Source: Pirellulales bacterium (lineage in GTDB: Bacteria; Planctomycetota; Planctomycetia; Pirellulales; Thermoguttaceae). From it: a DNA stretch of 37,442 bases. This document shows positions 9,684 through 37,186 of the stretch, piece after piece; the stretch's first letter is position 1; each line of letters starts with the position of its first letter. The position numbers and the translations under genes were made by a program. The notes beneath the pieces were generated by a model, which was given only the letters and a program-made list of their open reading frames with translations, ran no database searches and was not told the origin of the DNA. The stretch spans positions 1 through 37,442 of the forward strand of contig JAFGDS010000051.1 of NCBI GenBank assembly GCA_016931995.1, read 5' to 3'.

Positions 9684-12359
9684 ATGTCCGCGGCGTCCCC
9701 TTTCCATTCCCATCGGCACGCGCACTTGTCGTCGCGTCGGGCGCGGCAGCGACGACTTCTGCTCCGCGTCGTGGACGCCGGATTGGCCGGGTGCGTGTTT
9801 GGGCTTCCGTGGCTTCTGGGCGGACGCCACCCGCTGGGACAACTCGCGCTGGTCGCGATGGCCGCGACGGTCGCGCTGGCGTGGCTTCTGCGTCAAACGC
9901 TCGAACGGGAGCCGACCTGGCGGCCGTCGGCCGGGACGCCGTGGGTGGCCGCGGCCGTCGCGCTGGTCGCGCTGCAGTTGCTGCCTCTGCCCGGGCCGCT
10001 CCTCGCGATGGCCAGCCCCAAGACGTCCGCGATCCTCCCGCTCTGGTCGGAAGGCGCCGGGAGCGCGGCCGGGCTGGGCGCGTGGTCATGCGTCTCACTC
10101 GCGCCGGCGGCGACGCTCTCGGGCCTTGCGCTCCTGGGAGCGTACGGATTGCTCTTCTGGGTCGGTCTCCAGCGGATCGAGGACGTTGAGGACGTCGAGC
10201 GGCTTCTGCGTTGGTGTGGCTTGTCGGCCCTGGCCGTCGCGGCCCTGGGGATCGCGCAATACTTGGGAAGCAACGGTCGATTCCTCTGGTTCTACGAAGA
10301 CCCGCTGTGCGATACGTTCGACGCCGCGAAGGCCGCCTTCACCAACCGCGACCACTTCGCCCACTATTTGGCTCTGGGTGTCGGGCCGTTCATCTGGTGG
10401 GTCCAGGACTCGCTTCGCAAGAAGCACCAGCGCGCCGAGCGGGATTCCGAGGAGACGTTCGCTTCGCCCGGGCGGGATACGGGGTTTCGCTGGCTTGGGT
10501 TCGGCGCGCTGCTCGCGGCCGGTCTGCTCTCGTGGTCGCGAGGCGGCGTTGTCGCGATCCTTGCCGCCGGAGTGGTCATCGTCGCGGCCTGCCGCCGCGA
10601 GAAACGGATCGGCCGGCAAACCGTGCTCTATCTGGGCGGCGCGGCCCTGGCAATGGCCGTCGGAATCGTGATCCTCGGGGGCCAACAGACCGCGTCGTCG
10701 CGCGGCGTCGTCGCTTGGTCAACCGCCCTTCGCGCGGCCCGCGATTTCCCGCTCGTTGGCGCGGGCGTCGGCAGCCACCGGTGGGTGTGCCCGACGTATC
10801 TCGACAAGACGGGCCCTTCCGGTTTCGATCCACGCGCCGGCGACGACGCCCTTGCCCAGGCCGACAGCGGTCCGCTACGGATCGCCCTCGAGACGGGCAT
10901 GCCCGGATTGACGCTTCTGCTCGCCGCCGTCGCGTGCGTCGGTTTTTGGTGTTGGCGGGCCTTGAGGCGGGCGGAGTCGCGCCGCGCGCGGCTGGCTGCC
11001 GCGGCCGCCGCGGCCGTCCTGGTCGCCAGCGTGCTTCAGGGACTGGTCGATTCGGTTTGGCGCGTGCCGTCGTGCATGGCCCTGGTGGCCCTTCTGGCCG
11101 CGTGCGCGTGTCGTTTGAGCCAGATGGCCTCGCCCGACGTGCCCGCCCGCGCCGCGCGACCGCTGCCGCGGCGACGGGCCGCGCTGGGCGCGGCCGCCGT
11201 GGGCGTGCTCGGCGCGGCGATGGTGTTCCAGCAAATCGGACCCGTCCGCGGATCGTTCCCCTGGCTGGCCTACCAGCGTCTGATCCGGATTCCTCCGGAC
11301 GACGAGGATCCCGAGCAAGCCCTCACCGTCGCCGTGCTCCAAAAACGCGTGGAGACGCTCCAAGAGGTGGTTGCCCGCGATCCAACCCACGCGGAGGCCC
11401 ACGTACTGCTGGCCGGCGATTGCCTGAAGCTCTTCGAGCGGATTCAAGAGGCGACGCCCGGCGCGAGGGGCCTTGCCGACGTCGGCCGCGCGGCGGCGGC
11501 GCTGCCGACCTCGTCTCGCGTGGAGGTCGCGGCGTGGCTGGTCCAAACGGTCGGGCCTCGGGCGGCGCTGCTGGAAAAAGCCCGGCAACACGCGCGGTGG
11601 GGACTGTCGCGGTGCCCATTGGAGGGCGTGGGCTACGCGTATTTCGGCCAGGTGGGCTTCCTCGAAGGGCGCGGCGCCGCGCCGGGGGAACGGGCATGCG
11701 TCGAGCAAGCTCTGCGCGTAAGGCCCTGGGATGGAAACGTGCTCATCGCCGCCGGGCACGAGGCCATCCGGTCGGGCGACGCGGCGCGCGGCGTGGCCTT
11801 GTGGCGGCGGGCGTATGGGGCGGGCCACGTGCACCGGTGCGCCCTGGTGCGACATCTGGCCGGCCGCGTCCATCCCAACGATCCGGCGCGCGACGTGGCC
11901 TTCTTCCTCGACACCTTCCAGCCCGATCTGCCGATCCTCCGGCGGCTCGACGACGTCCACGCCGCGACGGCCCGCGACGAAGACCTCGTTCGGCTTCGCG
12001 CCCGGCGCGCGGAGGCGGCGCGGGCGGCGGCGGCGTCCCAGACCGGTTCCGCCGCGGCGCGGCTCTGGCTCGAGGCGGGAACGGCGCACGCGCGGCTGGG
12101 CGACGTCCCCGGCGCCCTCGAATGCCTCGAACGCGCGGCGGCCTGCCAGCCCGACGACTACGAGATCCGATACCAGCTCGCCGTCGCCCTGGCCGAGCGA
12201 TTGCGATATGCCGAGGCCATGGAGCACGTCGAGTGGTGCTTGGCCAAGCGGCCGGACGATCCCGCGCCGCGAAACGTCGCGCGGCAGATCACCCAGGCGC
12301 AGGCCCGCCGCGCGTGGTCTGGGTTGCCCTCCGAAGAGCCAACGCCATACCGTCGTTAA
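9684..12359 (+). CDS. O-antigen ligase/polymerase (Wzy_C) family protein fused to TPR domain
   Basis: The 891-residue protein has about ten or more membrane helices in residues 30-530, then a soluble C-terminal half. The Wzy_C hallmarks are visible: FTNRDHFAHYLALGVGPF, the LLSWSRGGVVAI helix carrying the catalytic-type arginine, and a large loop with VGAGVGSHRWV before the last helices. The C-terminal 350 residues contain TPR-like helix pairs, clearest in LEAGTAHARLGDVPGALECL followed by a PDDYEIRYQLAVALAERLRY unit. Wzy/WaaL proteins join undecaprenyl-linked glycans on the outer face of the inner membrane. Ligase and polymerase cannot be told apart by sequence, and some family members glycosylate proteins. 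The TPR half suggests docking to a partner. The gene is followed by a palindromic repeat and then the CapD-like gene, pointing to polysaccharide synthesis. Confidence 0.85.
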   Translation: MSAASPFHSHRHAHLSSRRARQRRLLLRVVDAGLAGCVFGLPWLLGGRHPLGQLALVAMAATVALAWLLRQTLEREPTWRPSAGTPWVAAAVALVALQLLPLPGPLLAMASPKTSAILPLWSEGAGSAAGLGAWSCVSLAPAATLSGLALLGAYGLLFWVGLQRIEDVEDVERLLRWCGLSALAVAALGIAQYLGSNGRFLWFYEDPLCDTFDAAKAAFTNRDHFAHYLALGVGPFIWWVQDSLRKKHQRAERDSEETFASPGRDTGFRWLGFGALLAAGLLSWSRGGVVAILAAGVVIVAACRREKRIGRQTVLYLGGAALAMAVGIVILGGQQTASSRGVVAWSTALRAARDFPLVGAGVGSHRWVCPTYLDKTGPSGFDPRAGDDALAQADSGPLRIALETGMPGLTLLLAAVACVGFWCWRALRRAESRRARLAAAAAAAVLVASVLQGLVDSVWRVPSCMALVALLAACACRLSQMASPDVPARAARPLPRRRAALGAAAVGVLGAAMVFQQIGPVRGSFPWLAYQRLIRIPPDDEDPEQALTVAVLQKRVETLQEVVARDPTHAEAHVLLAGDCLKLFERIQEATPGARGLADVGRAAAALPTSSRVEVAAWLVQTVGPRAALLEKARQHARWGLSRCPLEGVGYAYFGQVGFLEGRGAAPGERACVEQALRVRPWDGNVLIAAGHEAIRSGDAARGVALWRRAYGAGHVHRCALVRHLAGRVHPNDPARDVAFFLDTFQPDLPILRRLDDVHAATARDEDLVRLRARRAEAARAAAASQTGSAAARLWLEAGTAHARLGDVPGALECLERAAACQPDDYEIRYQLAVALAERLRYAEAMEHVEWCLAKRPDDPAPRNVARQITQAQARRAWSGLPSEEPTPYRR

Positions 12360-21454: not shown

Positions 21455-21949
21455 ATGACGGGTAGACGTTTGTTTGCGGTGGTTGCGGTGCTGGTCGCGT
21501 TGGCCGGCGCGTGGAGCCTGGCCGGCTGTTCGCGCGAGAGCCAAGGGAAGAACGTCACCCGCGATCCCGCGCAGGTGGCGACGCTCGCCAAGCTCTACGG
21601 GGACTACCGCAAGGCGCACGGCGGCAAGGCCCCGCCGGACGAGGCGGCGTTCAAGGCTTTCGTCAAGGAGGCCGTGGCCAAGGGCACGGCGTCGCCGCCG
21701 GGCGCCAAGCCCGTCTCCGACCCGGAGGCGCTCTTCGTCTCCGAGGGCGACGGCCAGCCACTGGTGATTCTTTATGGCCCCGGCGCGCTGGACGGCCCCA
21801 AGGAAGGGCCCGGCGGCATGCCGGTGGTGATGTACGAACAAGAGGGCGTGGGGGGCAAGCGCTTCGTCGCCAGTCCGATGGGCTTGGTCAACGAAGTGAA
21901 CCAGGAACGTTTTGAACAGCTTGTGCCGAAAGGTGGTTCTTCGAAATGA
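21455..21949 (+). CDS. Small lipoprotein coupled to the DUF1559 gene
   Basis: The 164-residue protein has a lipoprotein signal peptide: basic start MTGRRLF, hydrophobic core and lipobox LAGC with C25 as the lipidated residue. The mature part has a helical segment (VATLAKLYGDYRKAHGGKAP, DEAAFKAFVKEAVAKG) and a beta-rich end (GDGQPLVILYGPG, GMPVVMYEQEGVGGKRFVA). I do not recognise a named family. The start ATG has AAGGAAA upstream. Its stop overlaps the start of the prepilin-like gene by four bases (ATGA), so translation is coupled and the two products probably work together, for example as lipoprotein and pseudopilin-like surface partner. The earlier in-frame start at 21395 would bury the signal peptide. 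Confidence 0.8.
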   Translation: MTGRRLFAVVAVLVALAGAWSLAGCSRESQGKNVTRDPAQVATLAKLYGDYRKAHGGKAPPDEAAFKAFVKEAVAKGTASPPGAKPVSDPEALFVSEGDGQPLVILYGPGALDGPKEGPGGMPVVMYEQEGVGGKRFVASPMGLVNEVNQERFEQLVPKGGSSK

Positions 21950-22998
21950 AAGCGACAAAACCTTCTCGCGGGGGCGGGTTCACACTGGTGGAGCTGCTCG
22001 TGGTGATCGCCATCATCGGCGTGCTCATTGCGCTGCTATTGCCGGCCGTGCAGGCGGCGCGCGAATCGGCCCGGCGGACGCAATGCTCCAACAACCTCCG
22101 GCAGTTGATTCTGGCCGTGAACAACCACGAGGCCCAGCGGGGCTGTTATCCCACGGGCGGCGACGTCCCCTGGCCGATCGCGACGTACAACATCTTCGAC
22201 GGGCGGGTCAATCCGCCGGAGAAGCTGGGCTTCTCCTGGGCGTTTCAGGTGCTCCCCTACACGGAGAAGGCGCCCTTGGTGGAACAGTTTCCGGCCAACA
22301 ATAATCCCGCCATGTTGCAGGCGGCCATGAAGGCCCTGTGCGAATCGCCCAACAGCCTGGCGTTTTGCCCCTCGCGCCGGGGCACCACCTCGGTCTATTA
22401 CAACGGCATCAATTACGTCCTGAACGACTACGCCGCCGCCGTGCCGGGGCCCAAACTCAACAACGATCCCAACTACGAAAACATCAACGCCTTCTGGTCG
22501 GGGCACACGCAGATAAGCAATGCCGACCCCTATCGCTGGACGATCCAGCCGAACATGTATTTCCAGGGCGTCATCACGCGGATCTCCTGGTGGCGCGGCG
22601 GCACGGGCGACGACGGCACCAACGCCGGGCCCGAACGATTCGTCGATCCGGTCCGGCTCGTCCGGCCGGGAGACATCACCGACGGCGCGAGCCAAACGAT
22701 GGTGCTCGGCGAGAAGCGGCTCCTGCCCAACGAGTACGACACCGGTCGCTGGTGCGACGACCGCGGTTGGACCGACGGCTGGGACCCGGACACGCTCCGC
22801 TCGACCCAGCACAAACCGGAGCTGGACGGCGCCAATTCGTACGATCCCTGCTACCAATTCGGCTCGGCGCACGTGTCGGGCTTCAACGCCGCCTTCGCCG
22901 ACGGTTCCGTCAAGACGATCCCCTACGAGATCGACCGCCTGATCTTCGCCTGGCTCGGCGACCGCATGGACGGGCAGTCGTTCGAGATGCCGTTTTAG
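21946..22998 (+). CDS. DUF1559 prepilin-like protein
   Basis: The 350-residue protein begins with a type IV prepilin N-terminus: cleavage between G11 and F12, Glu at position 5 of the mature protein, then a hydrophobic helix (FTLVELLVVIAIIGVLIALL) and the planctomycete signature LPAVQAARESARRTQCSNNL. The rest is the DUF1559 domain (SBP_bac_10): a C-terminal TMVLGEKR, and SGFNAAFADGSVKTIPYEID near the end. The family is massively expanded in Planctomycetes; it is presumed exported by a prepilin peptidase-dependent route, but the function is unknown. The gene is coupled to the lipoprotein by a four-base overlap. Length is typical (300-350). A broken palindromic repeat follows the stop directly. 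Confidence 0.95.
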   Translation: MKATKPSRGGGFTLVELLVVIAIIGVLIALLLPAVQAARESARRTQCSNNLRQLILAVNNHEAQRGCYPTGGDVPWPIATYNIFDGRVNPPEKLGFSWAFQVLPYTEKAPLVEQFPANNNPAMLQAAMKALCESPNSLAFCPSRRGTTSVYYNGINYVLNDYAAAVPGPKLNNDPNYENINAFWSGHTQISNADPYRWTIQPNMYFQGVITRISWWRGGTGDDGTNAGPERFVDPVRLVRPGDITDGASQTMVLGEKRLLPNEYDTGRWCDDRGWTDGWDPDTLRSTQHKPELDGANSYDPCYQFGSAHVSGFNAAFADGSVKTIPYEIDRLIFAWLGDRMDGQSFEMPF

Positions 22999-23205: not shown

Positions 23206-24618
<1,413 letters not shown>

Positions 24619-24695
24619 GGGGCGCGTTGTCCAAAGGGGGAGGTTGATTCGCCCGCGGCACAAGGCACGCGTCAGCCCGGTTAGGGATTACCACT

Positions 24696-25073: not shown

Positions 25074-28000
25074 ATGCGTTGGCCGATCCTCTGGTGCGTG
25101 TTCGCCGTCGTGGCCTGTTGCCCGGCAGCGGCGGCCCAGAACGCCCCGCCGCCGTCCACTCCGCCATCGGTCGCGCCGGCGGCCGCCGTGGTCGAGGCCG
25201 CGCCCCGGCCCGACCGCGTGGAGGAGGCGCCGCTGCCGCTTTACTACGTCGAGGACGAGCAGGGAAAGCTCGTCCCGATGTTCGGCTTCACGTTCGAGGA
25301 CTTCATGCGGGCGTTTCGGCGGATCGAGGGGCTCGCGCCCAGCGCGCCGGCCGCGTCCTACGTGATCGAGCGTTTTTCGGCGCGGGGCAGAGTTCAGGGG
25401 TCGCGGGTGGAACTGGACGTCCAATACGATCTGATTGCCCGCGACGAGGGTCGTTTCCGCGTGCCGTTGCGGCTGGGCGGCGCCGTGGCGAGGGGTCCGC
25501 TCGAGAGCGATCCAGACGTGCGCGCCATTCTGGAATACGACGAGCAGGCGAAGGACTACGTCTGTTGGGCGCGGGCCAAGCCGGACGAGCGATTCCGTTT
25601 GACGTTGGGCGTCTCGCTCCCGGTTGCGTCGCTCGGCGGGGAGTCGTGCCTTCGGATGCGCGTGCCGCCGGCCGCGCGCTGCGAGCTGCAACTGACCGTG
25701 CCCGAAGCGGGGCTCGTCGGCGAAGTCTCCCGGGGCGCCACGCTCGAGACGACCGCGTCGGAGGATCCGCGGCAGACGCGGTTCACGGCGGCGGGGCTGC
25801 GCGGCGATTTCGAGTTGCGGTGGCGCAAGCCCGCCGAGGCGGCGACCGCCGCGCCGACCGTGCTCGATGCCTCCGGCCAGATCGCGGTCCGGATCGACGA
25901 CCAGAGCGTCCATACCGAGGCGACGCTTCAGGTCCAAGGGGGCGCTGCGCCGCTCGATCGGTTTCGGATCCGATTGCCGGCCGGATCGGAGCTACTGCCG
26001 GACAATCCCTCGGACTATCGTCTGGTAGTGCTGCCGCCTAGCCGCGAGGGCGCCCAGACGGCGGGGCCGCTGGTCGAGGCGCGGCTTGCCGAGCCCACGG
26101 CCGGGCCGGTCACCGTGCGACTGGCCACGCGGCGTCCGCTGTTGGGCCCGCCGTCCGCCGAGTGGCAAGAGCTGGGCGGGTTCGAGGTGATCGGGGCGGC
26201 GCGCCAGTCGGGCCGCGTCGCCGTCGAGGTCCGCGGCGACCTGTTTGTCTCTTGGGATCCCCGGCAGGGAGTCCGCCAGGTGGAGGCCCTGCCCGAGTCC
26301 GCGACCGGCGCCGACTACACGGCGGGTTTCGAGTACGTCGCGCAGCCCTATTCGCTGCGGGCAAGAATCGTGCCGCGCAAGACGCACGTCAACGTGGCGC
26401 CGGAGTACGTGGTGTCGGTCGATGCCCGGCAGGCGTCGCTTGCCGCCACGCTGCGCTACACGGTTCGCGGCAGGAAGGCGATTCTGTTCGAGGTGGACAT
26501 GTCCGGGTGGGAGTTCGACGAAGTGGGACCGGACAACGTCGTGGGCGCCGACGGAGCCAAGGTGAGCGGCGACGGCGTGTTGAGCGTGCCGTTGCTCCAG
26601 CCGTCAACCGGCCAGATCGAGATCACGATCAAGGCCCGCCAGCCAATCGACGCGGCGTCGGGGAGGATGCGGCTCACGTTTCCCGAACCGCGCACCGGGG
26701 CGCCCGGTCCGGCGGGCGTGGCGATCCTGCCCGCCGACAACGTCCGCCTGGTTCCCGACGACGACGCGACGATGGGCCTGTCTCGGCAAGAGACGCCCCC
26801 GCCGGTCGATCTTCCCAAGCGGCGCCAGCCGCCGTTGTTCTATCGAGGCGAGATCGGCAGGGCCGTCTTCGTGGCCGAGCACTCGGTTCACGCCCAGGCG
26901 ATTTCGGTGGGCGTGACCACGCGGGTGGCGCTGGACGACGAGGGCGGGCGCGTGGAGCAACGCCTGGCCTACACGGTCGAGTACGAGCCCCACGATCGGC
27001 TTCTCCTGGAGGTGCCGCGGAGCCTGGCCAAGTCCGACGCCACGGAGTTCCTGTTGGACGCAAAGCGGCTGCTGCCGACGGCGCTGGCGGAGGGCGAGCC
27101 GGACGCGTCGGGTGACGACAACCGACCGGTCCGCATGGTCGTGGCCTTGCCCGAGGCCCGGATGGGACGGTTCGATCTGATCGTTCGTTATCCGTTGCCG
27201 CCGCGCCGGCTCGTCCCAAAATCGACGCTGCTCAGGGCGATACCGCTGGTGATGCCGTTGGACGGTCGGTTGACGGCCAACCGCGTCATGGCGCTGGCTT
27301 CGGCCGGGCTGTGCGTGACGCACCCGCAAGGCTTGTGGAAGCCGCGGGTCGCGTCCGACGGGCCGGGCCAGACCGCGCCGGCGCCGTCCTCGTCGTTGGA
27401 GTTGACTTCGCTCGAACGGCTCGCGGAAGTCGAACTGGGCGTCTTCATGGAAGCCCGAAATCTCCCCGACGCCACCGTCGTCCAGCGAGCGTGGCTTCAG
27501 ACCTGGTTGATCGAGGCGGGATCGACCACGGGCCGGCAGGATCGGGCTTTGTTCCGCTTCACGACCAACCGCCTTCAGGTCGCGCTGCGTCTTCCCGAGG
27601 GCACGATCGACTCGGAAACGGAGATCTTCCTCGACGGCGAGCCCGTCAACGCGCCGGTCAACGACAAGGCGGTCCGACTCATCGCTCTTCCCCGAACGGC
27701 GCCGCAGCGCGAGCACCTTCTGGAGGTGCGGTGCCAACGTCCCGGCGGGTGGACGCCCCAGGGCAGGTTCCTGCTCGATCCGCCGCAACTGGGAGAACAG
27801 GTCTGGACGCGACGCGCCTATTGGCAGGTGATCGTGCCGCCGCACGTGCATCTGGTGGGTTCTCCGCCGGGCTACGTCGCGGAGTGCCGTTGGGCCTGGA
27901 ACGGCGTCTTCTGGGGGCGGCAGCCGCTGTTGGATACGCCCGACCTGGAGCGATGGGTGGGCATTGAGCCCTCGGCCGCCGATCCGAAAGGCGCCAACAC

Positions 28001-28469
28001 CTATCTGCTCGGCACGCTGGGACCCATGCCCGCCGCCGTCCTGAGATCGGCCAACCGCTCGTGGATTGTCCTGGCGGCCTCCGGCGCGGCGTTGGTTCTG
28101 GGGTTGGTCTGGATCTACGTTCCCGTGGTGCGCCGCGGCGGCGTCCTTTGGGCGGCGGTCGTGGCCCTGGCCGCGACGACGGCTCTCTGGCCGGCGCCGA
28201 CGCTCTTGGCCCTCCAGGCGGCAAGCCTTGGCGTCGCGCTGGCCCTCGTGGCCGGCCTGCTCGAGTCGCGCTTCGGGCGGCGCGGCCCGGGGCGGCGCGG
28301 CGCGACGGGCTCGGTTCTCGACAGGGACTCCACGCAGACGCAGTACGTCACGCTGTCGGTCCCCGGCGAAAACTCGGCCGCGGCCTCGTCGCCTCCCGGT
28401 CCCGCGACTCCCTCGGCCACCACCACGCACGTGCCTTCCCGCGACGTACCCAGCAGCCGCGTGGGCTGA
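25074..28469 (+). CDS. Giant exported membrane-anchored protein of unknown function, one module
   Basis: The 1131-residue protein has a signal peptide (MRWPILWCVFAVVACCPAAA), a Pro/Ala linker and a lead motif at about 56-80 (LYYVEDEQGKLVPMFGFTFE). A beta-rich ectodomain of about 840 residues with many short strands and few cysteines follows, then RRAYWQVIVPPHVHLVGSPP at about 914. Three hydrophobic segments follow at about 996-1064, and a Ser/Thr/Pro-rich tail of some 65 residues ends the protein. I recognise no family. Its motif order recurs twice in the next gene, so the two are likely paralogous and functionally linked. The gene ends 21 bp before that gene. The ATG at 25074 gives a clean signal peptide; an earlier ATG (25026) does not. 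The ectodomain pattern suggests stacked beta sandwiches outside the membrane; a scaffold or surface role is inference. Confidence 0.85.
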   Translation: MRWPILWCVFAVVACCPAAAAQNAPPPSTPPSVAPAAAVVEAAPRPDRVEEAPLPLYYVEDEQGKLVPMFGFTFEDFMRAFRRIEGLAPSAPAASYVIERFSARGRVQGSRVELDVQYDLIARDEGRFRVPLRLGGAVARGPLESDPDVRAILEYDEQAKDYVCWARAKPDERFRLTLGVSLPVASLGGESCLRMRVPPAARCELQLTVPEAGLVGEVSRGATLETTASEDPRQTRFTAAGLRGDFELRWRKPAEAATAAPTVLDASGQIAVRIDDQSVHTEATLQVQGGAAPLDRFRIRLPAGSELLPDNPSDYRLVVLPPSREGAQTAGPLVEARLAEPTAGPVTVRLATRRPLLGPPSAEWQELGGFEVIGAARQSGRVAVEVRGDLFVSWDPRQGVRQVEALPESATGADYTAGFEYVAQPYSLRARIVPRKTHVNVAPEYVVSVDARQASLAATLRYTVRGRKAILFEVDMSGWEFDEVGPDNVVGADGAKVSGDGVLSVPLLQPSTGQIEITIKARQPIDAASGRMRLTFPEPRTGAPGPAGVAILPADNVRLVPDDDATMGLSRQETPPPVDLPKRRQPPLFYRGEIGRAVFVAEHSVHAQAISVGVTTRVALDDEGGRVEQRLAYTVEYEPHDRLLLEVPRSLAKSDATEFLLDAKRLLPTALAEGEPDASGDDNRPVRMVVALPEARMGRFDLIVRYPLPPRRLVPKSTLLRAIPLVMPLDGRLTANRVMALASAGLCVTHPQGLWKPRVASDGPGQTAPAPSSSLELTSLERLAEVELGVFMEARNLPDATVVQRAWLQTWLIEAGSTTGRQDRALFRFTTNRLQVALRLPEGTIDSETEIFLDGEPVNAPVNDKAVRLIALPRTAPQREHLLEVRCQRPGGWTPQGRFLLDPPQLGEQVWTRRAYWQVIVPPHVHLVGSPPGYVAECRWAWNGVFWGRQPLLDTPDLERWVGIEPSAADPKGANTYLLGTLGPMPAAVLRSANRSWIVLAASGAALVLGLVWIYVPVVRRGGVLWAAVVALAATTALWPAPTLLALQAASLGVALALVAGLLESRFGRRGPGRRGATGSVLDRDSTQTQYVTLSVPGENSAAASSPPGPATPSATTTHVPSRDVPSSRVG

Positions 28470-28490
28470 CACCGGCCGCGAAAGAAAGCC

Positions 28491-31400
28491 ATGTCTTGCA
28501 CACCCGACCGCATCCGTCTGCCCCGTCCGCGACGCGTCGCCAGGGCGGCGGGCCTTGCGCTGGTGGCGGCGTGGTGGTCGGCCTGCCTCTCCACGGCGGC
28601 AGTCGCGAAGCAACCCGCCGCGGCGGCCGATCCCGCGACGCTGGCCGCGACGCAAAACGCCGCCACCGCCGCGCCCGAGCCGTCCACCGAAGCCGCAACG
28701 CCCTCTCCGACGCCCTTGCCCGTTCCGTTCGTGCGGGCGTTCGTGCCCGCCGATCGCGTGGAAGACTGGCCGCGAGACCAGGGACGATACGTTCCGATGG
28801 AGACCGCGGCGTTCGACAATCTGATCGCGCGCGTATCGGGAGCCCCGGGCCCCGGCGGACCGCGGCCCGAGGAAGTTCGCGTCGACGCCCGGCTCGGCGA
28901 GCAAGGGCTGCTGGAAGGCCGGACGTCGTTGCGCGTCGCGGGCGCGCCGGACGCGCCGGCGCTCGTTTCGCTCGGGCGGTGTCGGCTGGCCGTGCGCGAC
29001 GCGCATTGGCAAGGCGATCCCCCCATCCCGGCCGTGCTCGGCGCCGGCGAGAACGGCGCCTTGCTGCTGCTCGCCGACCGATCCGGCGTGGTCGTCCTGG
29101 CCTGGTCGGCGCGCGGGCGCGAGGGAGCCGAGGGAAACACGGTCTTTCGACTTGACCTGCCGCGCGTGTGCGGACTGGCCCTGCGGCTCGATCTGCCCGC
29201 GGGCGCCGCCCCCGCCGTCGAAGGCGGACTGCTCGTCTCGCGCGGGCCGGGCAACGAGGGCCGCGAGACCTGGACGTTTGCCTTGGCGCCCGAGCGGCCG
29301 GTCGTGTTGCGGCTGGCTGCCCCTGGACGCACCGCCGCCGAGGAGCCGCTGGCGGAGGTCCGCACGTCGGTGGTGTACGACTTCTCGCCGCACGGCGTCG
29401 AGGTCAAGGCTCGACTGCATTTCGACGGTTCCGGGACGCCGCTGGGCCGCGTGGCCCTGGCGTTGGATCCGCCTTTGCGGCTCGCCACCGCGCATTGGGG
29501 CGAGCGACCCGCCGCGTGGACGGTCGCGTCGGGAGCGGGTGAGTCGCCCACGCGGATTCTGATTGATCCTCCGGTGGTGGAAGACGCTGCCGTGCCGGAG
29601 CTGCGTTTGGGAGCGGTGGCTCCGCCGGTTCGCGGCGGTCGGTGGACGTTGCCGAGGATCCGGCCGCAGCGAACCCTATGGCGCCAAGGCGAGGCGACGC
29701 TGCTGGTGCCCGAGCCGCTCCAACTCGACCAGGTGGAGGGCATCTCGTGCCGGCAATCGAAAGTGGAGCCTCTCTCGGCGCCCCGCGTGGGGCAATCGAT
29801 TCAACTTCAATATTTCTCGCCGGACGCGGCGGCCCGCGTCGTGCTGAGCCAACCCCACGCCACGGCGACGATCGACTGCGGCACGTCGTTGGAGTTGGGC
29901 GGCTCGGGCGCCGCGGCGACGGTCGTCGCGGCGTGCCGCATCGAAAACGGCGAGCGTTTCGAGCTCCGGGCGAAGGTGGCGCGCGATTGGATCCTCGACC
30001 GGGTCGAGTCGGTCCCGGCGGGCGCCGTGGCCGATTGGGACGTGGCCGTCGCGGCCGACGGGTCGCGCCAATTGATCGTTCGTCTGGCCAAGCCGCTCGC
30101 GCCCGGCGCGGCCCCGTTGCGGCTCTCCGTGGCGGGCCGATGGCTTGATCTGGCGGTCGGACAACCGCTGGCGCTGGAGGACCTATTGCCCTTGGAGTTT
30201 CTCGACGCGCAGCGGGGGCAAGAGCTGGTTGCCCTCCGCGCGGCCGAGTCGTATCGCCTGACGGGGGCCACCACCACGCCGCTGGTCGGACTGGACCCCG
30301 CCGATCTCGACGCCCACGCCGCGGCGCTTCTTCCCAATGCCAACCCTCTCCCAAAGGGAGACGGGACGCAACACGCGGCCTCTCCGGCGGCGCCTTCCGG
30401 TTCAACGCGCCTGGTCTTCGCGCGCGATGACGGCCAGACGTTGCCGCGGGTGGTTGTGCGGCGGCAGGCGCCGGGTTTCGCGAGCGAGATAGAGACCGCG
30501 GTCCTTGCCGAAGGCGGCATGGTGACTCAGACGCACCGGTTGCGATGCGTGCCCGACGCGCCGCGGATCGACCACGTCGTCATCCACCTGTCGGACGACC
30601 GGCCGGAGCCGTGGCGGTTCACGTTGGGGACGGACGACGACGAATCGCTTCCGGCGCGGCGTCTGGGACCGGCCGAGCAGTCGGCGGTGGGCGTGGGGCC
30701 GGGCGGACAAACGTGGGACGTGGCGGTCGTGCCGCCGCGGATCGAACCCTTTTTGATTTGCGCCGAGCGAAAGGAATCTTTGACGCGGCCCCTGACCGTT
30801 TGCCTGGCCGCGCTGCCCGAGGCCGTCCGGCAACAAGCCCGATTGACGATCGGCGCCAACGACGCCACCGCGCTGGAGATCGCAAACCGGCGGCTGGAGC
30901 CGGTCCCCTGCGACCCGGCGCCAGCGGGGCGCTGGCCCATCGCGCGGGCGGCCTACCGCTATGGCCCCGCGGACGTCGCGGCGGCGGCCGACGAGCCGGC
31001 GATTACGGTGGCTGCGGCCGCGGCGTCGCGGAAGTCGCCCGATGCCGCGGTGTGGTCGCTGGAACTGTTTTCGTGTTATCCACCCCACGGCGGGGCGCGA
31101 CACCTGAGCGTCCTTCGGGTGCAGAACTTCGGCCGCAAGCAGATTCGGATTACGCTTCCGCCGGACGTGGCGCCCAACGAGGTTGTGTCGGTATGGGTCG
31201 ACGCGCAACCGTCGGCGTGGCGGGTGGCGGACGCGCGGGGCGCCGCCGCGATCAGCGTGGACTTGCCTGCTGGAGCCGCGATGCCCACCGTGGCGATCGA
31301 TTTCTCCACGTTCGAGCCGGCCCTCGCGCGGGGACGAAGCCTGGCTCCGCCCGTCCCGGCGGTGGACGTGCCCGTTCTCTCGCGGCGGTGGATGGTGCGG

Positions 31401-34400
31401 CTGCCGCCGGGTTACATGCCCTTGCGCGACGCGTGCGCCCAGGACGCTTCGTGGACGCAGCGGCTTTTCGGTCCGTTCGGACGCCCCGCCGGCGCCCGGC
31501 CTTTCGATCCGCTTCTGGGCGACGACTGGCGCGGCCTCGCGACCGTTGGGTCGTGGGGCCCGCGCCGCGCCGCGATCTCGTCGGCGCCTGCCGAGGCGCC
31601 CTCCCCCGCTGAGCCGTCCAAACTGCCGTGGCCGGCGGCGTTGCCGGCCGGTTGGGCCCCGAACGACACGACCCAATGGACGGTTTGCCGCGTCGCGCTC
31701 TCGGAAACGGGATCAAACCGGTTGTCCGTCGTCGACGCCGACGCGTTGGAGGCCGCGCGATGGTTGGCGTTGCTGGCCACCGTCGTTTTGGGAAGGACGA
31801 CGCGGCTGCGCCGCCCCAGCACGCTCATTGCCGTCGGCGGGGCGGCGGCCGCGGCGGCATTGTTGCTGCCGTCCCTCGTCGCGGTCGTGGCTTCCGGCGT
31901 CTGGCTCGGCGTGCTGCTTTGCGCCGCGTGGGGGCTGGCGCGCCGGGCATCGTCGCGCCCGGCGTCCGACGGGTCGCGCACGGCCGTCCTCGCCGACGCC
32001 CCGACCACCGCGTGCCTGATTCTTGCCGTCGGGATCCTCGCGGGCCGTGCCGTCCGCTGTCCCGCGGCCGACGCGACGCCGCCCGACCGCGCGCCCTATC
32101 GCGTGTTGATCCCCATGGATTCCGAGCGGAAGGCCGCGGGCGATCGCGTGTTCGTTCCCGAGCCGTTGCTCCGCGAGCTCCATCGGCTCGACACCGCCCG
32201 GGCCGGGCGGCCGCGGGGGGGCCTGCTGACCGGCGCGGTCTACCGAGGCGCAATGGCGTGGCAGGCCCCGTCCAAGCAGCTTACTTTGGAGCACCTGTGC
32301 GCGGAATTCGATCTGAGGGTGTTCGACTCGTCGGAACCCGTGCGGACGCCGTTGGGTCGGCAACGGATCGAGCCCTCGGCCGACGGCGTTCGGCTCGACG
32401 GTCAACCCATCCCGCCCCAATACGACCCGACGGACGGCGCGCTGGTGCTGTCAGTGTTGGAGCCAGGACCGCATCGGCTGGAGGTGATCCTTCAACCGAG
32501 CGAGCGGGCGGACGACGCCAGCGCCGCCAGCCCCGGCGAACGGGGTTTCGACGTGGACGTTCCACCGCTGCCGCAAGCCCGGCTCGAACTGAGCCTTCCG
32601 CCCGGCGCGCCGGCCATCGACGTGCCCACCGCCCGCGGCGCGGTCCAACAGGACGGCCAGCGACTCCTCGCGGAGATGGGAGGAGCGGATCGGCTGAGCG
32701 TGCGTTGGAGAGACGGCGCGCCGGGCCCGCGGGCCGACGGACAAAAGGAGGTCGAGGAATTGCTCTGGCTTCGGATCGCGCCGGGCTCCGTGGTGCTCGA
32801 CGCCCGATTCGTCTGCCACGTGCTCAGCGGCCAGCTCGTCGAGCTGCCGCTGGAGGGAGAGCCGCGCTTGCGACTGTTGGAGTCGTCGCCGGGCGTGAAG
32901 ATGATCGAGGCGCCAGGCAAGCCGGGCTTGTGGCGCGCCACGCTCGAAAAACCCGCCACCGAGCAGGTTGCCATCGAAGCGAGCTTCCTGGTCACGGAGG
33001 CCTCTGGCGTGGGAAGCCTTCGGCCCCCGCGGCTTCGTTGCCAACATCTTCGGGCAACGCGGCGGTGGTTGGCCGTCTCGATCGATCCGACGCTGCGCCA
33101 CGAACTCGTGTCGCCTCGGCCGCTGGAGCCCGTGGCCGTGCCCGACTTCCTCAAAGCCTGGGGAGACGCGGACGCCCCGCCGCAATTCGTCCGCGATCCG
33201 CGCGACGAGACGAATCCTTGGACTATCGCCTCTTGGCCGCGGCCGGGCGAAACGGTCGTCGAACAAATGGTCGTCGTGAGTTGCGGTCCGCACGAGGCCG
33301 AGGCGCACCTGGACGCGAATCTCCAGACGACGCCAGGCCATGGGTTCCATTACGCGGTGCAAGTGCCCAGTGGATTCGTGGCCGAAACGCTCCGCGTTCT
33401 GGAGGACGGCGCCGACCGCGTGGCCCGCTGGTCGCAAGGCCCGGACGGAACCATTCACGTGTCGCTTGCCGGGCCGGCCGCCGGCGCCCGTCGGCTGTTG
33501 CTCGACGGCCGCCTTGCGCTGGATCATCGCGGACAAGGCGACTTGCCGATTCCCCAGGTCATCGGCGGCCGCCTCCAGAAGTGCCAGGTCGCCGTGTTCC
33601 GGCGGCCGGGCGTCCTGGTCCGCGTCGCCGACGCGGCCGGGCTCGTCCAGGCCGACGCGCCGGTCCTCGCCCAACCGAAACGAAGCCTGGGCTGGCACGC
33701 CGGGTCGTTCGTCGCCGGCGGCGAAACCCCGCCCGTCGCCCGGCTGCTGGTCGAGCCCAACCGCCCTCGGATCACGGCCGTGCAGAGCACGTCCGTTTGC
33801 CGCGCCGGCGCGGCGTACGAAGCCTGTCTGGAATTCGAGATCGACGTGGCCAGCGGTCCGCTGGATCAGATCGAATTGGACGTGCCGCCCGGCATGTCGG
33901 GTCCCTTCCGGACGACTCCGGCCATGGAGATCGTGGATCAACCCTCCTCGGGGTCGAACCGCCTGCTCGTGTTGCGGCCCCAATCGCCCCTGACCGGCCG
34001 CGTCCATCTCACGTTCGCCGGGGTTCTGGAAGGCGAGCCGTTGCGCGTGCCCAACGTCGCGCTGCGCGGCGCGGCATACGTCCGCCGGCTGGTCGTTCTG
34101 CCCTCGCGGCTCGACGATCAACCCGTCCTCTGGGAAACGCGGGGCCTCAAACAGACCACCCTCCCGGCGCGGTGGAGCGCAACCCGCGGCGTGCCCGCGG
34201 GCACGGCGTACGAGGTTTCGGGCGACGCGTTCCACGCCGGGCTTATTCCCTCGCCACCCGAAGGCAAGACGCCCCGGGTTGAGTGGGCCGATACGCGCGT
34301 CGTCTGGCAAGCGGATGGAGCGTGCGCGGGCGTGGCGCGCTTCGATCTGATTCCGGCTGGGCGCGCCGCCTGTCCGCTGCGCGTGCCGGAAGGCACGCGG

Positions 34401-35027
34401 CTCTTGCAGGTCGTCGTGGCCGGCGCGCCCACATGCCCCCTGCCCGTCGACGAACGTCTCGACGTGGCCCTGGCCTCCCGGGAAATGCCACAACGCATCG
34501 AGGTCGCGTTCAGCCGCCCCGCCGCGTCGGGCGGCGCGGCGGACGCCAGGATGATCGAAGCGCCGCAATTGGGTGACTTGCCGGTCGCCGCGACGTCTTG
34601 GACCGTGTGCGTGCCCCGGGGCTTTTCGGTCGACTGGCCGCGGCCAACCATGGACCTAAAGCCCGAGGACGCCGACCGGGAGGCCATTCCCGACGGGTCG
34701 CTCGCCGGGCCATGGTCCGCCTCGCTGCCCGAGGATTCCGACACGATCGTCGCCCGGACGGACGGTCCCGCGCCCTCGATCGCCATCGTCCCACCGGCGG
34801 CGCCGTGGCTCGCGCGACGCCTGCCGGCCGCCCTCGCGGCGACGGTCCTCGCCGCCTTGGCCTATCTCGCCGCGCGACGAAGTCTTGTTTCCGCGACGCT
34901 CCGTCGATGGCCCCCTCTGCTGGGCGCCCTGGCGGGCGTCTTCTGGTGGCTCTTCCTTTGGCCCAGCGCGCTGGGTGGGGTCATCGCGCTCGCGTCCCTG
35001 GCGGCCTGGCGCCGACGCGATTCTTAA
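28491..35027 (+). CDS. Giant exported membrane protein of unknown function, two modules
   Basis: The 2178-residue protein, one of the longest single frames expected in such a genome, has a signal peptide (GLALVAAWWSACLSTAAVAK). Two similar halves follow. Half one: lead motif at about 80-105 (FVRAFVPADRVEDWPRDQGR then YVPMETAAFDNLI), a beta-rich region, SRRWMVRLPPGY at about 965 and TQWTVCRVA near 1065, then membrane segments at about 1090-1188. Half two: lead motif at about 1203-1232 (YRVLIPMDSERKAAGDRVFV, then PEPLLREL), a beta-rich region, SWTVCVPRGFSVDW near 2035, and membrane segments at about 2110-2173 ending in AWRRRDS. Each half resembles the single module of the upstream protein. It is co-oriented with that gene, 21 bp apart. 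No enzyme motif was seen. RNase P RNA begins 42 bp after its stop. Function unknown. Confidence 0.85.
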   Translation: MSCTPDRIRLPRPRRVARAAGLALVAAWWSACLSTAAVAKQPAAAADPATLAATQNAATAAPEPSTEAATPSPTPLPVPFVRAFVPADRVEDWPRDQGRYVPMETAAFDNLIARVSGAPGPGGPRPEEVRVDARLGEQGLLEGRTSLRVAGAPDAPALVSLGRCRLAVRDAHWQGDPPIPAVLGAGENGALLLLADRSGVVVLAWSARGREGAEGNTVFRLDLPRVCGLALRLDLPAGAAPAVEGGLLVSRGPGNEGRETWTFALAPERPVVLRLAAPGRTAAEEPLAEVRTSVVYDFSPHGVEVKARLHFDGSGTPLGRVALALDPPLRLATAHWGERPAAWTVASGAGESPTRILIDPPVVEDAAVPELRLGAVAPPVRGGRWTLPRIRPQRTLWRQGEATLLVPEPLQLDQVEGISCRQSKVEPLSAPRVGQSIQLQYFSPDAAARVVLSQPHATATIDCGTSLELGGSGAAATVVAACRIENGERFELRAKVARDWILDRVESVPAGAVADWDVAVAADGSRQLIVRLAKPLAPGAAPLRLSVAGRWLDLAVGQPLALEDLLPLEFLDAQRGQELVALRAAESYRLTGATTTPLVGLDPADLDAHAAALLPNANPLPKGDGTQHAASPAAPSGSTRLVFARDDGQTLPRVVVRRQAPGFASEIETAVLAEGGMVTQTHRLRCVPDAPRIDHVVIHLSDDRPEPWRFTLGTDDDESLPARRLGPAEQSAVGVGPGGQTWDVAVVPPRIEPFLICAERKESLTRPLTVCLAALPEAVRQQARLTIGANDATALEIANRRLEPVPCDPAPAGRWPIARAAYRYGPADVAAAADEPAITVAAAAASRKSPDAAVWSLELFSCYPPHGGARHLSVLRVQNFGRKQIRITLPPDVAPNEVVSVWVDAQPSAWRVADARGAAAISVDLPAGAAMPTVAIDFSTFEPALARGRSLAPPVPAVDVPVLSRRWMVRLPPGYMPLRDACAQDASWTQRLFGPFGRPAGARPFDPLLGDDWRGLATVGSWGPRRAAISSAPAEAPSPAEPSKLPWPAALPAGWAPNDTTQWTVCRVALSETGSNRLSVVDADALEAARWLALLATVVLGRTTRLRRPSTLIAVGGAAAAAALLLPSLVAVVASGVWLGVLLCAAWGLARRASSRPASDGSRTAVLADAPTTACLILAVGILAGRAVRCPAADATPPDRAPYRVLIPMDSERKAAGDRVFVPEPLLRELHRLDTARAGRPRGGLLTGAVYRGAMAWQAPSKQLTLEHLCAEFDLRVFDSSEPVRTPLGRQRIEPSADGVRLDGQPIPPQYDPTDGALVLSVLEPGPHRLEVILQPSERADDASAASPGERGFDVDVPPLPQARLELSLPPGAPAIDVPTARGAVQQDGQRLLAEMGGADRLSVRWRDGAPGPRADGQKEVEELLWLRIAPGSVVLDARFVCHVLSGQLVELPLEGEPRLRLLESSPGVKMIEAPGKPGLWRATLEKPATEQVAIEASFLVTEASGVGSLRPPRLRCQHLRATRRWLAVSIDPTLRHELVSPRPLEPVAVPDFLKAWGDADAPPQFVRDPRDETNPWTIASWPRPGETVVEQMVVVSCGPHEAEAHLDANLQTTPGHGFHYAVQVPSGFVAETLRVLEDGADRVARWSQGPDGTIHVSLAGPAAGARRLLLDGRLALDHRGQGDLPIPQVIGGRLQKCQVAVFRRPGVLVRVADAAGLVQADAPVLAQPKRSLGWHAGSFVAGGETPPVARLLVEPNRPRITAVQSTSVCRAGAAYEACLEFEIDVASGPLDQIELDVPPGMSGPFRTTPAMEIVDQPSSGSNRLLVLRPQSPLTGRVHLTFAGVLEGEPLRVPNVALRGAAYVRRLVVLPSRLDDQPVLWETRGLKQTTLPARWSATRGVPAGTAYEVSGDAFHAGLIPSPPEGKTPRVEWADTRVVWQADGACAGVARFDLIPAGRAACPLRVPEGTRLLQVVVAGAPTCPLPVDERLDVALASREMPQRIEVAFSRPAASGGAADARMIEAPQLGDLPVAATSWTVCVPRGFSVDWPRPTMDLKPEDADREAIPDGSLAGPWSASLPEDSDTIVARTDGPAPSIAIVPPAAPWLARRLPAALAATVLAALAYLAARRSLVSATLRRWPPLLGALAGVFWWLFLWPSALGGVIALASLAAWRRRDS

Positions 35028-35069: not shown

Positions 35070-35524
35070 AAGGAGGCGTAGTGGAACGGATGGCCGCCGG
35101 CCGGGGATTCCGGAGCCGCCCCATCGGCTCGACGGGACCCGGCGGGAGGAAAGTCCGGGCTCCGTAGGACGTGGCGGTGGGTAACGCCCACCGGCCGTGA
35201 GGCCAGGGAAAGTGCAACAGAAAGCAAACCGCCCGGCGGATTCGTCCGCCGGGTAAGGGTGAAACGGTGAGGTAAGAGCTCACCAGCAGGCCGGGCGACC
35301 GGTCTGGCTAGGCAAACCCCGCCAGGAGCAAGGTCAAGCAGGGAGCTGCGGCCACGCGCGGGATCACTCCTTCGCGGCCGGCCCGCGGATCGGTCCGGTC
35401 CGCCATCGACTCCCGGGTAGACCGCTTGAGGGGCCGAGCAATCGGCCTCCTAGAGGAATGGCCATCGCCCGCCCGCGAAAGCGGCGGGTACAGAACCCGG
35501 CTTACAGGTCCGCTACGCCTCCTT
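35070..35524 (+). ncRNA. rnpB: RNase P RNA, bacterial class A
   Basis: This is the catalytic RNA that trims the 5' ends of tRNA precursors. The universally conserved blocks are present in order: gaggaaagtccgggctcc (35146-35163, P4 5' strand), acagaaagcaaaccgcc (35217-35233), ggtaagggtgaaacgg (from 35252) followed by gaggtaagagctcacc, aggagcaaggtcaa, and acagaacccggctta (35490-35504, P4 3' strand and J regions). The termini form a 16-bp P1 helix, 35070-35085 with 35509-35524, with one G-U pair, which fixes the ends. About 455 nt is within the range of type A RNAs, somewhat long. The 3' P1 strand overlaps the last codons of the convergent gene. No intrinsic terminator is seen after the 3' end. 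Confidence 0.96.
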
Positions 35525-35995
35525 CTTCCTCTTGCGGGAACGCGGCTTGTCCGTCTCAAGGTAACGCTTCCGCGGTATCATCGACCGGTCGACGCACTGC
35601 ACCAGCTTCGAAATGCACAGCTTGTTGAGCGTCGTCTTCCGCTGATACGCCTCCTCCGTGAGCGCCTCGTGCATGCTCCGCGGAATGCGGACCGTGATTA
35701 CCGCCGTCGGCTCCTGCTGGTCCGCGGGGATCGGCGGATTCTCGCGAAGCCGCGCCATCATCCGCAATAGCTCCCCGTGGCAGTCGGTCGCCTCGAACTC
35801 GGCCAGGGACTCCCGCGTTGGGTAGTACTGGCGGACCACGCCGCCGACGCCCAGCATCTCGCGGTAAAACGTCACCCAGTCCGGCTGCTCGGCAAACAAC
35901 GCCGCCGCGGCCCGATATACTTCCGCCTCGCGCGGCGCCGCCTCGCTGCCTTCCGTCGTCCGGAAAAGCGACGGCATCGAGTCCGGTGTGGTCAT
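35513..35995 (-). CDS. HicB-like ribbon-helix-helix protein
   Basis: The 160-residue protein has an N-terminal helical region of about 100 residues without a known domain (AEVYRAAAALFAEQPDWVTF, EFEATDCHGELLRMMARLRE). A ribbon-helix-helix segment of the HicB C-terminal type follows at about 97-138: TAVITVRIPRSMHEALTEEA, then RKTTLNKLCISKLVQCV. A basic tail (RSRKRKKEA) ends it. It probably binds DNA as a dimer. The start is well supported by GGAGGAAGGAAACC directly before the ATG. No HicA or other toxin gene is adjacent, so it is more likely a stand-alone regulator than a toxin-antitoxin pair. Its stop codon and last few codons lie within the 3' P1 strand of rnpB, which runs in the opposite direction. 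Palindromes upstream could be its operators. Confidence 0.78.
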   Translation of the reverse strand: MTTPDSMPSLFRTTEGSEAAPREAEVYRAAAALFAEQPDWVTFYREMLGVGGVVRQYYPTRESLAEFEATDCHGELLRMMARLRENPPIPADQQEPTAVITVRIPRSMHEALTEEAYQRKTTLNKLCISKLVQCVDRSMIPRKRYLETDKPRSRKRKKEA

Positions 35996-36023
35996 GGTTT
36001 CCTTCCTCCAAATCCATCCCGCG

Positions 36024-36159
36024 GACCCCGCGGGGTCGCCCGCGAGATCGCCGCCGGACCGGTTCTCCCCACGCCAGAATACCGCCCGCGACAACCCGAC
36101 GCTGCAACCCAATGCAGTGACAGCACTTATGCCGCTGCTGGCGGAATGCGCGCATTCCG
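36024..36159. promoter_or_regulatory. Divergent intergenic region with two perfect palindromes
   Basis: gaccccgcggggtc (14 bp, 36024-36037) lies about 30 bases before the RHH gene start. cggaatgcgcgcattccg (18 bp, 36142-36159) lies mid-gap, followed by gcacgcgtgc (36161-36170). Such sites between a DNA-binding protein gene and a divergent glycosyltransferase gene could be operators for an RHH dimer. The rest of 35996-36343 shows nothing else. Confidence 0.35.
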
Positions 36160-36343
36160 GGCACGCGTGCCGGTTTTGCGGGCTGCGCAAGAAATAGGCA
36201 CGCCGGCGTTCCCGATTCCCAGGTGTCGCGCTCGCCCTGGGCCCGACTTCCCGCCCCCTACGGCCCCGCGTGCCATATTTCCCACGGACCACAACGCCCG
36301 GCCAATTCGCCCGGGAATCGCCGCACGCCCAAAGGACTTCCCC

Positions 36344-37186
36344 ATGAGTCAAACGCAAGTTATTGACTTCGAGCCGACGCCAGCCAGCCCGCCCGAGCTG
36401 GCCGAGCCGCTCGCGCCGCCGACCGTCACGGTGTGGGGACTCCCCCTGGCGCGGATCGACATGGACGATCTCGTGGATTGCGTCGATCGGCTCGTCGAAC
36501 GGCGCCGGCCCAGCTTCTTCATCACGGCCAATCTGCATTACGCCCGACTGTGTCGCGCGGATCGGACCCTTCAGGACGTGAACCGTCGCGCGGCCTTCCT
36601 CGTGGCCGACGGAATGCCGTTGGTCTGGTACTCCTGGCTCCTGCGGCGGCCCCTGCCCGCGCGGGTCACCGGCGCCGACGCCGTCTATCGGCTCTGCCAG
36701 CGGGCGGCCGAGCGAGGGCATCGCGTCTTCCTGCTGGGCGCCGCGCCCGAGGTCGCCCGGCGGGCGGCCGATATCTTGCGAGGGCTGTTTCCGGGCTTGA
36801 ACGTCGTCGGCGTGCGGTCGCCCGCGTTCGCGGCGCTCTCGCCCGACGACCACGAGCAGCTCGTCGACGAAATCCGCCGGACCGAACCCGACGTGTTGTT
36901 CGTCGCCCTGGGCCAGCCCAAGGGAGAGCGGTGGCTCGCGCGCCACGTCGAGGCGTTGGGCGTGCCGGCGTGCGTGCAGGTGGGCGCGGCGCTGGACTTC
37001 ATCGCGGGCCGCGTCCACCGGGCGCCGCGGTGGGCGCGGCGGCTGGGCGTCGAGTGGCTCTTCCGCGCGGTCGGCGAACCCCGCCGCCTCGTCCCCCGCT
37101 ATGCCGCCGACGCCGCATTCTTGGCCGGCGCGCTGGCGCGCGACCTGTCGACCGCCGTGCGAGGACTCTGGCGCAAAAAACAATAA
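36344..37186 (+). CDS. WecG/TagA/CpsF family glycosyltransferase
   Basis: The 280-residue protein belongs to GT26, whose members (WecG, TagA) add ManNAc-type sugars to an undecaprenyl-PP-linked sugar at the cytoplasmic face of the membrane. All family blocks are present: FFITANLHYARLC, FLVADGMPLVWYSWLL, RVTGADAVYRLCQRA, VFLLGAAPEVARRAADIL, DVLFVALGQPKGERWLA, VQVGAALDFIAGRVHRAP, LGVEWLFRAVGEPRRLVPRY. VADGMP contains the acidic residue proposed as catalytic. It is somewhat longer than TagA (about 245) through a 30-residue N-terminal extension. The ATG at 36344 has AAAGGA upstream. It most likely serves the same surface glycan pathway as the Wzy- and CapD-like genes, though it lies 22 kb away. 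It ends directly in a dispersed repeat. Confidence 0.95.
   Translation: MSQTQVIDFEPTPASPPELAEPLAPPTVTVWGLPLARIDMDDLVDCVDRLVERRRPSFFITANLHYARLCRADRTLQDVNRRAAFLVADGMPLVWYSWLLRRPLPARVTGADAVYRLCQRAAERGHRVFLLGAAPEVARRAADILRGLFPGLNVVGVRSPAFAALSPDDHEQLVDEIRRTEPDVLFVALGQPKGERWLARHVEALGVPACVQVGAALDFIAGRVHRAPRWARRLGVEWLFRAVGEPRRLVPRYAADAAFLAGALARDLSTAVRGLWRKKQ

Follow-up and report, generated by a model that had tools for sequence, protein, structure and literature searches.

Two adjacent giant genes, P1 and P2, in a 37,442-nucleotide stretch of DNA from a Pirellulales bacterium (contig JAFGDS010000051.1; this whole stretch is called the window) encode three copies of one module, in which five tandem β-sandwiches of about 165-235 residues each are followed by a cluster of membrane helices. 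P1 is a single module, and P2 looks like two modules fused via an internal signal-anchor. This anatomy of three modules, five repeats and membrane anchors is put forward with high confidence. Several of the β-sandwiches are modelled with the fold of the N-terminal domain of M1 aminopeptidases (M1-NTD), and it is proposed, with a probability of roughly 0.45, that the two proteins form a non-enzymatic, inner-membrane-anchored arm or scaffold in the periplasm, with a link to envelope sensing in some lineages. Computed results cover the gene pair, the threefold homology of the modules, the fivefold repeat of the domains, the fold of several domains, the adjacency of the genes and, in some lineages, their linkage to sigma factor and VWA genes.

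Both frames are as described in an initial annotation, which had been made from the sequence without database searches. P1 has 1131 residues from an ATG at 25074, or 1147 residues from an alternative in-frame ATG at 25026, and P2 has 2178 residues and a stop codon at 35027; the two lie 21 bp apart on the plus strand. The annotation had also quoted six motif strings, all of which were found: a lead motif at residues 56-75 of P1 and at residues 85-104 and 1207-1226 of P2, and a second motif that reads YWQVIVPPHV in P1 (916-925) and RWMVRLPPGY (966-975) and SWTVCVPRGF (2036-2045) in P2. In the models the lead motif, which had been described as carrying a hydrophobic helix, takes the form of short strands and then a helix ahead of the first domain, not of a membrane helix.

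The claim that one module is present three times in the pair, twice in fused form, was borne out by profile-profile comparison. Profiles were built from 39 P1 sequences, 39 first halves of P2 (P2a) and 38 second halves (P2b), taken from the window and from 38 other regions with room around the match, with P2 cut at residue 1204 of the window's protein. In hhalign, P1 aligns with P2a with an E of 5.7e-38 over 974 columns, P1 with P2b with an E of 4.9e-33 over 909 columns, and P2a with P2b with an E of 2.6e-35 over 807 columns, all colinear; a separate set of alignments gave 6.1e-38 for P1 and P2b. Among 18 controls with reversed or column-shuffled profiles, the best reached an E of 3e-4 over 67 columns, with a probability of 39.6. 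All three segments are thus similar to one another, and no unrelated known family is confined to one of them. The halves of P2 are separated by a segment like a signal peptide or signal-anchor (residues 1172-1195, with a hydropathy peak at 1165-1183). Unfused versions also exist, given that the counterpart of P2 is two genes in two loci (L095 and L098) and that three module genes follow one another in two loci of other classes (L202 and L203).

A FastTree phylogeny of 66 chosen modules over 1044 columns places modules 1, 2 and 3 of the pair's own type (type A) in one clade each, with supports of 1.000, 0.999 and 0.959, and places module 1 of a paralogous type B together with that of other classes in another clade (1.000). 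The three type A modules also cluster jointly (0.991), so the tree does not fix the order of triplication and pair duplication.

The region between the two motifs had been described as β-rich, which it is, but as five repeated domains and not as a single stretch. Modules 1 and 3 were modelled with AlphaFold2 at a mean predicted local distance difference test (pLDDT) of 84.0 and 85.0, and in both models the strands fall into five blocks, each starting with two long strands, before the helix cluster. The three modules were cut at the modelled limits, which were transferred to module 2 by hhalign, and the profiles of the resulting 15 domains were compared with one another. The best of 75 reversed controls reached an E of 1.5e-3, which 62 of the 105 domain pairs beat; 43 of the 105 fall below 1e-4, the best at 3.3e-13, and the best ones are aligned in register. 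Within single modules, 5, 6 and 7 of the 10 pairs beat the best control. First domains are most like first domains and fifth like fifth, and domains 2-4 are less position-specific, a pattern that fits duplication of a five-domain module as a whole.

Single-domain structural matches to M1 N-terminal domains have Z scores of about 12-13, mostly with a root-mean-square deviation (rmsd) close to 3 across some 155 residues; for models that lack a clear match, the tool gives 7-8 as the typical best Z. The M1-NTD fold is found in this way for four of the ten modelled domains, namely the first and fifth of module 1 and the third and fifth of module 3. The matches include the TFIID entries 7edx and 5fur, in which the chains matched are presumably TAF2, a non-catalytic use of the fold. 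The single-domain fold is what the modules have in common with TAF2 and with M1 aminopeptidases such as LTA4 hydrolase, ERAP1 and tricorn factor F3; unlike the aminopeptidases, the modules have no catalytic domain and carry their domains in arrays of five. No M1 sequence was reached by any module or domain profile, P1, P2 and the 34 and 33 module members scanned have no M1 match in Pfam, and the five HExxH strings in 99 family proteins never share an alignment column, so that the zinc motif of the M1 catalytic domain is not conserved. With no link at the level of sequence and no conserved HExxH, the relationship is one of shared fold and not of family membership, and membership in the M1 peptidases was dropped.

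The two proteins had been described as paired, and the genes are adjacent in 54 of the 57 related genomes that have P1. The 39 loci examined, which comprise the window and 38 others, all have the pair adjacent and in the same order, and in 12 of them the frames, as called, overlap by 4 nt. Among the remaining 18 genomes with P1, the genes are adjacent in 15, cut by contig ends in two (G003 and G019) and separate in one (G029). P1 has no match in three of the 60 genomes. Adjacency extends further, with P1-like and P2-like genes side by side in all of 20 additional loci, which comprise paralogs and loci from other orders and classes. Seven genomes from another order have, besides type A, a second, paralogous pair (type B), whose second protein has about 2600-2800 residues, and the window's own genome has such a type B pair elsewhere (G000:C7:5441-17039, L188), with frames of 1174 and 2693 residues.

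Across an even sample of 294 Planctomycetota genomes, P1 is matched in at least 46, module 1 of another class in at least 98, and one or the other in at least 102, with 192 lacking a match; these counts are lower bounds, given that at most two candidates were scored per genome. No match lay on a plasmid, a result that says nothing of other phyla; only Planctomycetota were searched on purpose. A Pirellulales-like copy of P1 occurs in a record titled Candidatus Nealsonbacteria (L122, JABMRB010001437.1), which is most likely a mis-binned contig.

A possible link to gene regulation comes from other classes of the phylum, in which 26 loci were collected. Twenty are evaluable (L167, L200-L209, L211-L215, L219-L221 and L223), and six that are cut or unclear were set aside (L210, L216, L217, L218, L222 and L224; L225 is a second piece of L205). 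A YfbK-type VWA gene lies directly upstream of the modules in eight of the 20 (L201, L205, L206, L211, L214, L219, L221 and L223), and an extracytoplasmic function (ECF) sigma factor gene precedes it in seven, the contig of L219 beginning inside the VWA gene. By Pfam, VWA and YfbK_C are present in all eight VWA proteins, a zf-HC2 finger in five (L201, L206, L211, L221 and L223), and sigma-70 regions in all six sigma genes scanned; the seventh, in L205, was recognised by phmmer. In L221 and L223 the genes for the sigma factor, the VWA protein, module 1 and module 2 follow one another with a 4-nt overlap at each of the three junctions; in L205 the VWA gene is followed by one protein of two-module size, and a module 1 gene of its own was not seen. 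Complete VWA proteins have 792 to 1897 residues, of which the larger ones include a long part unannotated by Pfam, and that of L206 contains a DxSxS stretch, which we take to be metal-binding. In their gene content these eight loci may be compared with known systems of ECF sigma factors, zf-HC2 anti-sigma factors and YfbK-type VWA proteins, from which they differ in that the modules are additional genes.

Such linkage raises the alternative that the modules themselves sense a ligand or strain within an ECF sigma/anti-sigma system, in which case the copies in the window's class would act via unlinked sigma factors. The directly linked VWA and sigma genes argue for this, but none of the 39 loci has a VWA match, the sigma-like genes found in four of them lie elsewhere than beside a VWA gene, and presence in 57 of 60 relatives fits a structural role equally. 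A dedicated sensor is considered unlikely.

A second alternative arises from the structural searches. The top Foldseek hits of both models are chains of the oligosaccharyltransferase (OST) complex, with an E of 4.8e-9 for module 1 and 1.4e-9 for module 3; from their length and position we take these chains to be Ost1/ribophorin I. Ost1 in the endoplasmic reticulum is thought to hold acceptor proteins or lipid-linked glycans for the oligosaccharyltransferase, and by analogy the modules could be ribophorin-like accessories of a glycan-transfer machine, with arms that hold such substrates for an OST-like enzyme. Residues 563..954 of module 1 (domains 4-5) align with residues 28..445 of the best of these chains at a Z of 14.9 over 299 residues, and the window has genes for a WecG-family glycosyltransferase (35777-37186, beyond P2) and for a protein with Wzy_C and TPR regions (9684-12359). 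However, the rmsd of the module 1 alignment is 10.8, and module 3 aligns with OST chains in several registers at a Z of 12.4-12.8, level with its single-domain M1 matches, and an rmsd of 18-21; with such values the superposition holds for single domains only. No ribophorin family appears in Pfam scans of P1 and P2 (E up to 10) or of 34 and 33 module members (E up to 1), and searches of the PDB sequences with profiles of whole modules or of domains, up to an E of 10, reached no OST chain. STT3 (PF02516) has no match in this genome and matches four of 14 control genomes. Inspection by eye of 13 representatives of recurrent neighbours picked out no glycosylation gene. Passages of a published study (PMC4973528) report that neither bacteria nor archaea yielded anything similar to the non-catalytic OST subunits in BLASTp.

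A part in glycan transfer is thus judged quite improbable, and membership in ribophorin I was dropped for want of a ribophorin sequence match and of STT3 in this genome. What the modules appear to share with Ost1/ribophorin I, which has two domains and one membrane helix, is the arrangement of tandem M1-NTD-like β-sandwiches ahead of a membrane segment; they differ in having five domains and about three helices each and in lacking sequence similarity.

A complex for maturation or chaperoning of secreted proteins, analogous to BatD-like membrane proteins, which work with VWA partners, might also have a β-rich ectodomain, C-terminal membrane helices and, as in some lineages here, VWA neighbours; Pfam scans of selected neighbours found no Bat, MoxR or transglutaminase family, one A1 module member has a Pfam match to TgpA_N (E 4.7e-5), and this role is rated slightly below the glycan role. 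Degenerate M1 peptidase arrays that bind peptides would account for the domain fold, but the unconserved HExxH and the failure to reach any M1 sequence by profile or Pfam make them very improbable.

The periplasmic scaffold is thus the preferred reading of P1 and P2, in which we infer export, topology, assembly, tethering and signalling. A structural role is the simplest reading, and the search for enzyme motifs found none. Each of the three modules would be exported, its five M1-NTD-like β-sandwiches reaching into the periplasm as an arm and its C-terminal helix bundle holding it in the inner membrane. The placement in the envelope, which the initial annotation had also proposed, is predicted from hydropathy and the modelled helices. 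The three arms of a pair, encoded by neighbouring and often overlapping genes, probably assemble, and the assembled arms probably act as a periplasmic tether or adaptor. The VWA anti-sigma partner of some lineages suggests that the arms bind the VWA protein and that the state of the envelope is passed on to gene expression; where an ECF sigma gene and a VWA gene, usually with an anti-sigma zinc finger, are present, the VWA protein probably relays the state of the arms to gene expression. In the window's order such a link, if it exists, would lie outside the gene neighbourhood. Ser, Thr and Pro abound in the tail of P1 that is predicted to be cytoplasmic, and several orthologs have short stretches in common, for example DRDSTQT or ERGST, which are possible kinase or binding sites.

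Several results weigh against this scaffold. The predicted template modelling scores (pTM) are 0.44 for module 1 and 0.51 for module 3, so the arrangement of the domains, and hence an extended arm, is not established by the models. For six of the ten modelled domains, the 50 matches listed per model include none to that domain singly, and these six were assigned by repeat similarity and strand pattern; 43 of the 105 domain pairs fail to beat the best reversed control. Topology was judged solely from a simple hydropathy scan and the models. In G029, P1 and P2 lie on different contigs (G029:C62 and G029:C100; L229 and L230), and the roughly 2.7 kb after P1 hold no P2; therefore, adjacency is not strictly required. 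VWA matches are absent from the 39 loci, window included, and from 12 of the 20 evaluable ones in other classes; the window's genome has one YfbK_C match, which scores 26.2 bits (cut-off 25) and lies on a different contig. The commonest neighbour, an inositol-monophosphatase gene, points to no scaffold role. At least 31 of the 51 type A loci, some of which have the upstream part cut, carry it upstream, and it is missing in the window; together with the RimI neighbours it is taken as conserved gene order with no clear functional link. Several neighbours known by length alone are probably antisense open reading frames.

A bolder version of the scaffold, which is rather doubtful, would have fifteen ribophorin/M1-NTD-like domains on three inner-membrane anchors, in two paralogous sets in this genome, brace or sense an enlarged periplasm and report via a VWA anti-sigma factor in some lineages, as a hitherto undescribed class of bacterial envelope machine. 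To our knowledge, few proteins that build or monitor the planctomycete periplasm are known, and the P1/P2 set provides a short gene list for work on the planctomycete envelope. The pair amounts to about 3300 residues, is found in 57 of 60 relatives and is joined here by a second pair, and its repeat architecture is unrecognised by the family libraries used. The idea of sensing can be tested directly in lineages that have the sigma/VWA operon, and the modules indicate the extent to which the M1-NTD fold may have come to serve non-catalytic uses. The periplasmic space is enlarged in Planctomycetales and Pirellulales, according to the abstract of one study (PMC7716846).

The initial annotation could name no family for either protein, and searches agree. 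A Pfam scan of P1, up to an E of 10, found no family, that of P2 gave a single match, to PapC_C (E 0.0073), which was dropped at 16.5 bits against a cut-off of 27, and NCBIfam gave GltG alone, at an E of 2.3. None of the PADLOC models of anti-phage defence matched P1 or P2 up to an E of 1, and a role in defence was dropped. Also dropped were a Pfam match to DUF5693 in 12 of the 34 members of A1 (best E 3.7e-4), profile matches to MHC class I and RodA, judged to be matches of membrane helices or composition, and Foldseek matches to integrin and alpha-2-macroglobulin, with TM-scores of about 0.1. A literature search of open-licence papers recognised none that describes proteins of this type. As far as these tools show, the architecture of three modules of five domains, the pairing and the sigma/VWA operon are undescribed. 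The novelty lies in the system with its architecture; the building block has a known fold, and the function proposed is a prediction.

Table 1. Positions in the window of P1, P2 and their parts, with the basis of each assignment.
Feature	Position	Strand	Basis
P1, module 1 (1131 residues)	25074..28469	+	match in 57/60 genomes, own included
Putative P1 signal peptide	25074..25139	+	hydrophobic stretch P1 3-21 (19-37 of the 1147-residue frame); peptide and its end predicted
Module 1 lead motif, strands then helix	25239..25298	+	modelled E13-16, E22-25, H30-40
Module 1 domain 1, M1-NTD-like β-sandwich	25353..25856	+	model; Z 12-13, rmsd ~3, 141-160 residues against M1 N-terminal domains
Module 1 domain 2	25857..26378	+	strand pattern and profile similarity; no own single-domain fold match
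Module 1 domain 3	26379..26888	+	strand pattern and profile similarity; no own single-domain fold match
Module 1 domain 4	26889..27470	+	strand pattern and profile similarity; with domain 5 aligned to OST chain, high rmsd
Module 1 domain 5 (YWQVIVPPHV inside)	27471..28061	+	strands and profile; M1 match 3q7j, Z 12.4, rmsd 3.1 over 149
Module 1 membrane-helix cluster	28056..28274	+	three modelled helices H951-971, H973-994, H996-1023; two pass hydropathy scan
P1 C-terminal tail, predicted cytoplasmic	28275..28466	+	predicted topology
P2, modules 2 and 3 fused (2178 residues)	28491..35027	+	match in 58/60 genomes, own included
Module 2 lead motif	28743..28802	+	motif string present
Module 2 domain 1	28854..29345	+	boundary transferred by hhalign
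Module 2 domain 2	29346..29855	+	boundary transferred by hhalign
Module 2 domain 3	29856..30464	+	boundary transferred by hhalign
Module 2 domain 4	30465..31040	+	boundary transferred by hhalign
Module 2 domain 5 (RWMVRLPPGY inside)	31041..31742	+	boundary transferred by hhalign
Module 2 membrane-helix cluster, approximate	31722..31940	+	P2 1128-1146 passes hydropathy scan; two more by eye
Internal signal-peptide-like segment at fusion point	32004..32075	+	P2 1172-1195; putative role
Module 3 lead motif	32109..32168	+	motif string present
Module 3 domain 1	32214..32738	+	model and profile; no own single-domain fold match
Module 3 domain 2	32739..33242	+	model and profile; no own single-domain fold match
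Module 3 domain 3	33243..33761	+	model and profile; Z up to 13.2, rmsd 3.4 over 159 against M1 N-terminal domain
Module 3 domain 4	33762..34262	+	model and profile; no own single-domain fold match
Module 3 domain 5 (SWTVCVPRGF inside)	34263..34799	+	model and profile; Z 13.2, rmsd 2.9 over 147 against tricorn factor F3
Module 3 membrane-helix cluster	34806..35018	+	H906-929, H933-955, H959-976; one passes hydropathy scan

At 6.5 kb, P2 satisfies the size limit for the 'giant genes' of planctomycetes, given as more than 5 kb in passages of one study (PMC5177795); the label is one of size alone, and those passages describe no such module. The nearest identified gene before the pair encodes a fumarase/lyase, on the opposite strand (23206-24663). 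A gene for bacterial RNase P RNA of class A (RF00010, 273 bits) lies at 35078-35520 on the plus strand and starts 51 bases past the stop codon of P2; Rfam found none in the 14 other family loci scanned, so this adjacency is not conserved there. The protein with TPR repeats, encoded on the plus strand, has 891 residues, and its Wzy_C (O-antigen ligase) region scores slightly below the cut-off. A further plus-strand gene, at 21946-22998, encodes a DUF1559 protein, a common planctomycete type, with an N-terminal methylation motif.

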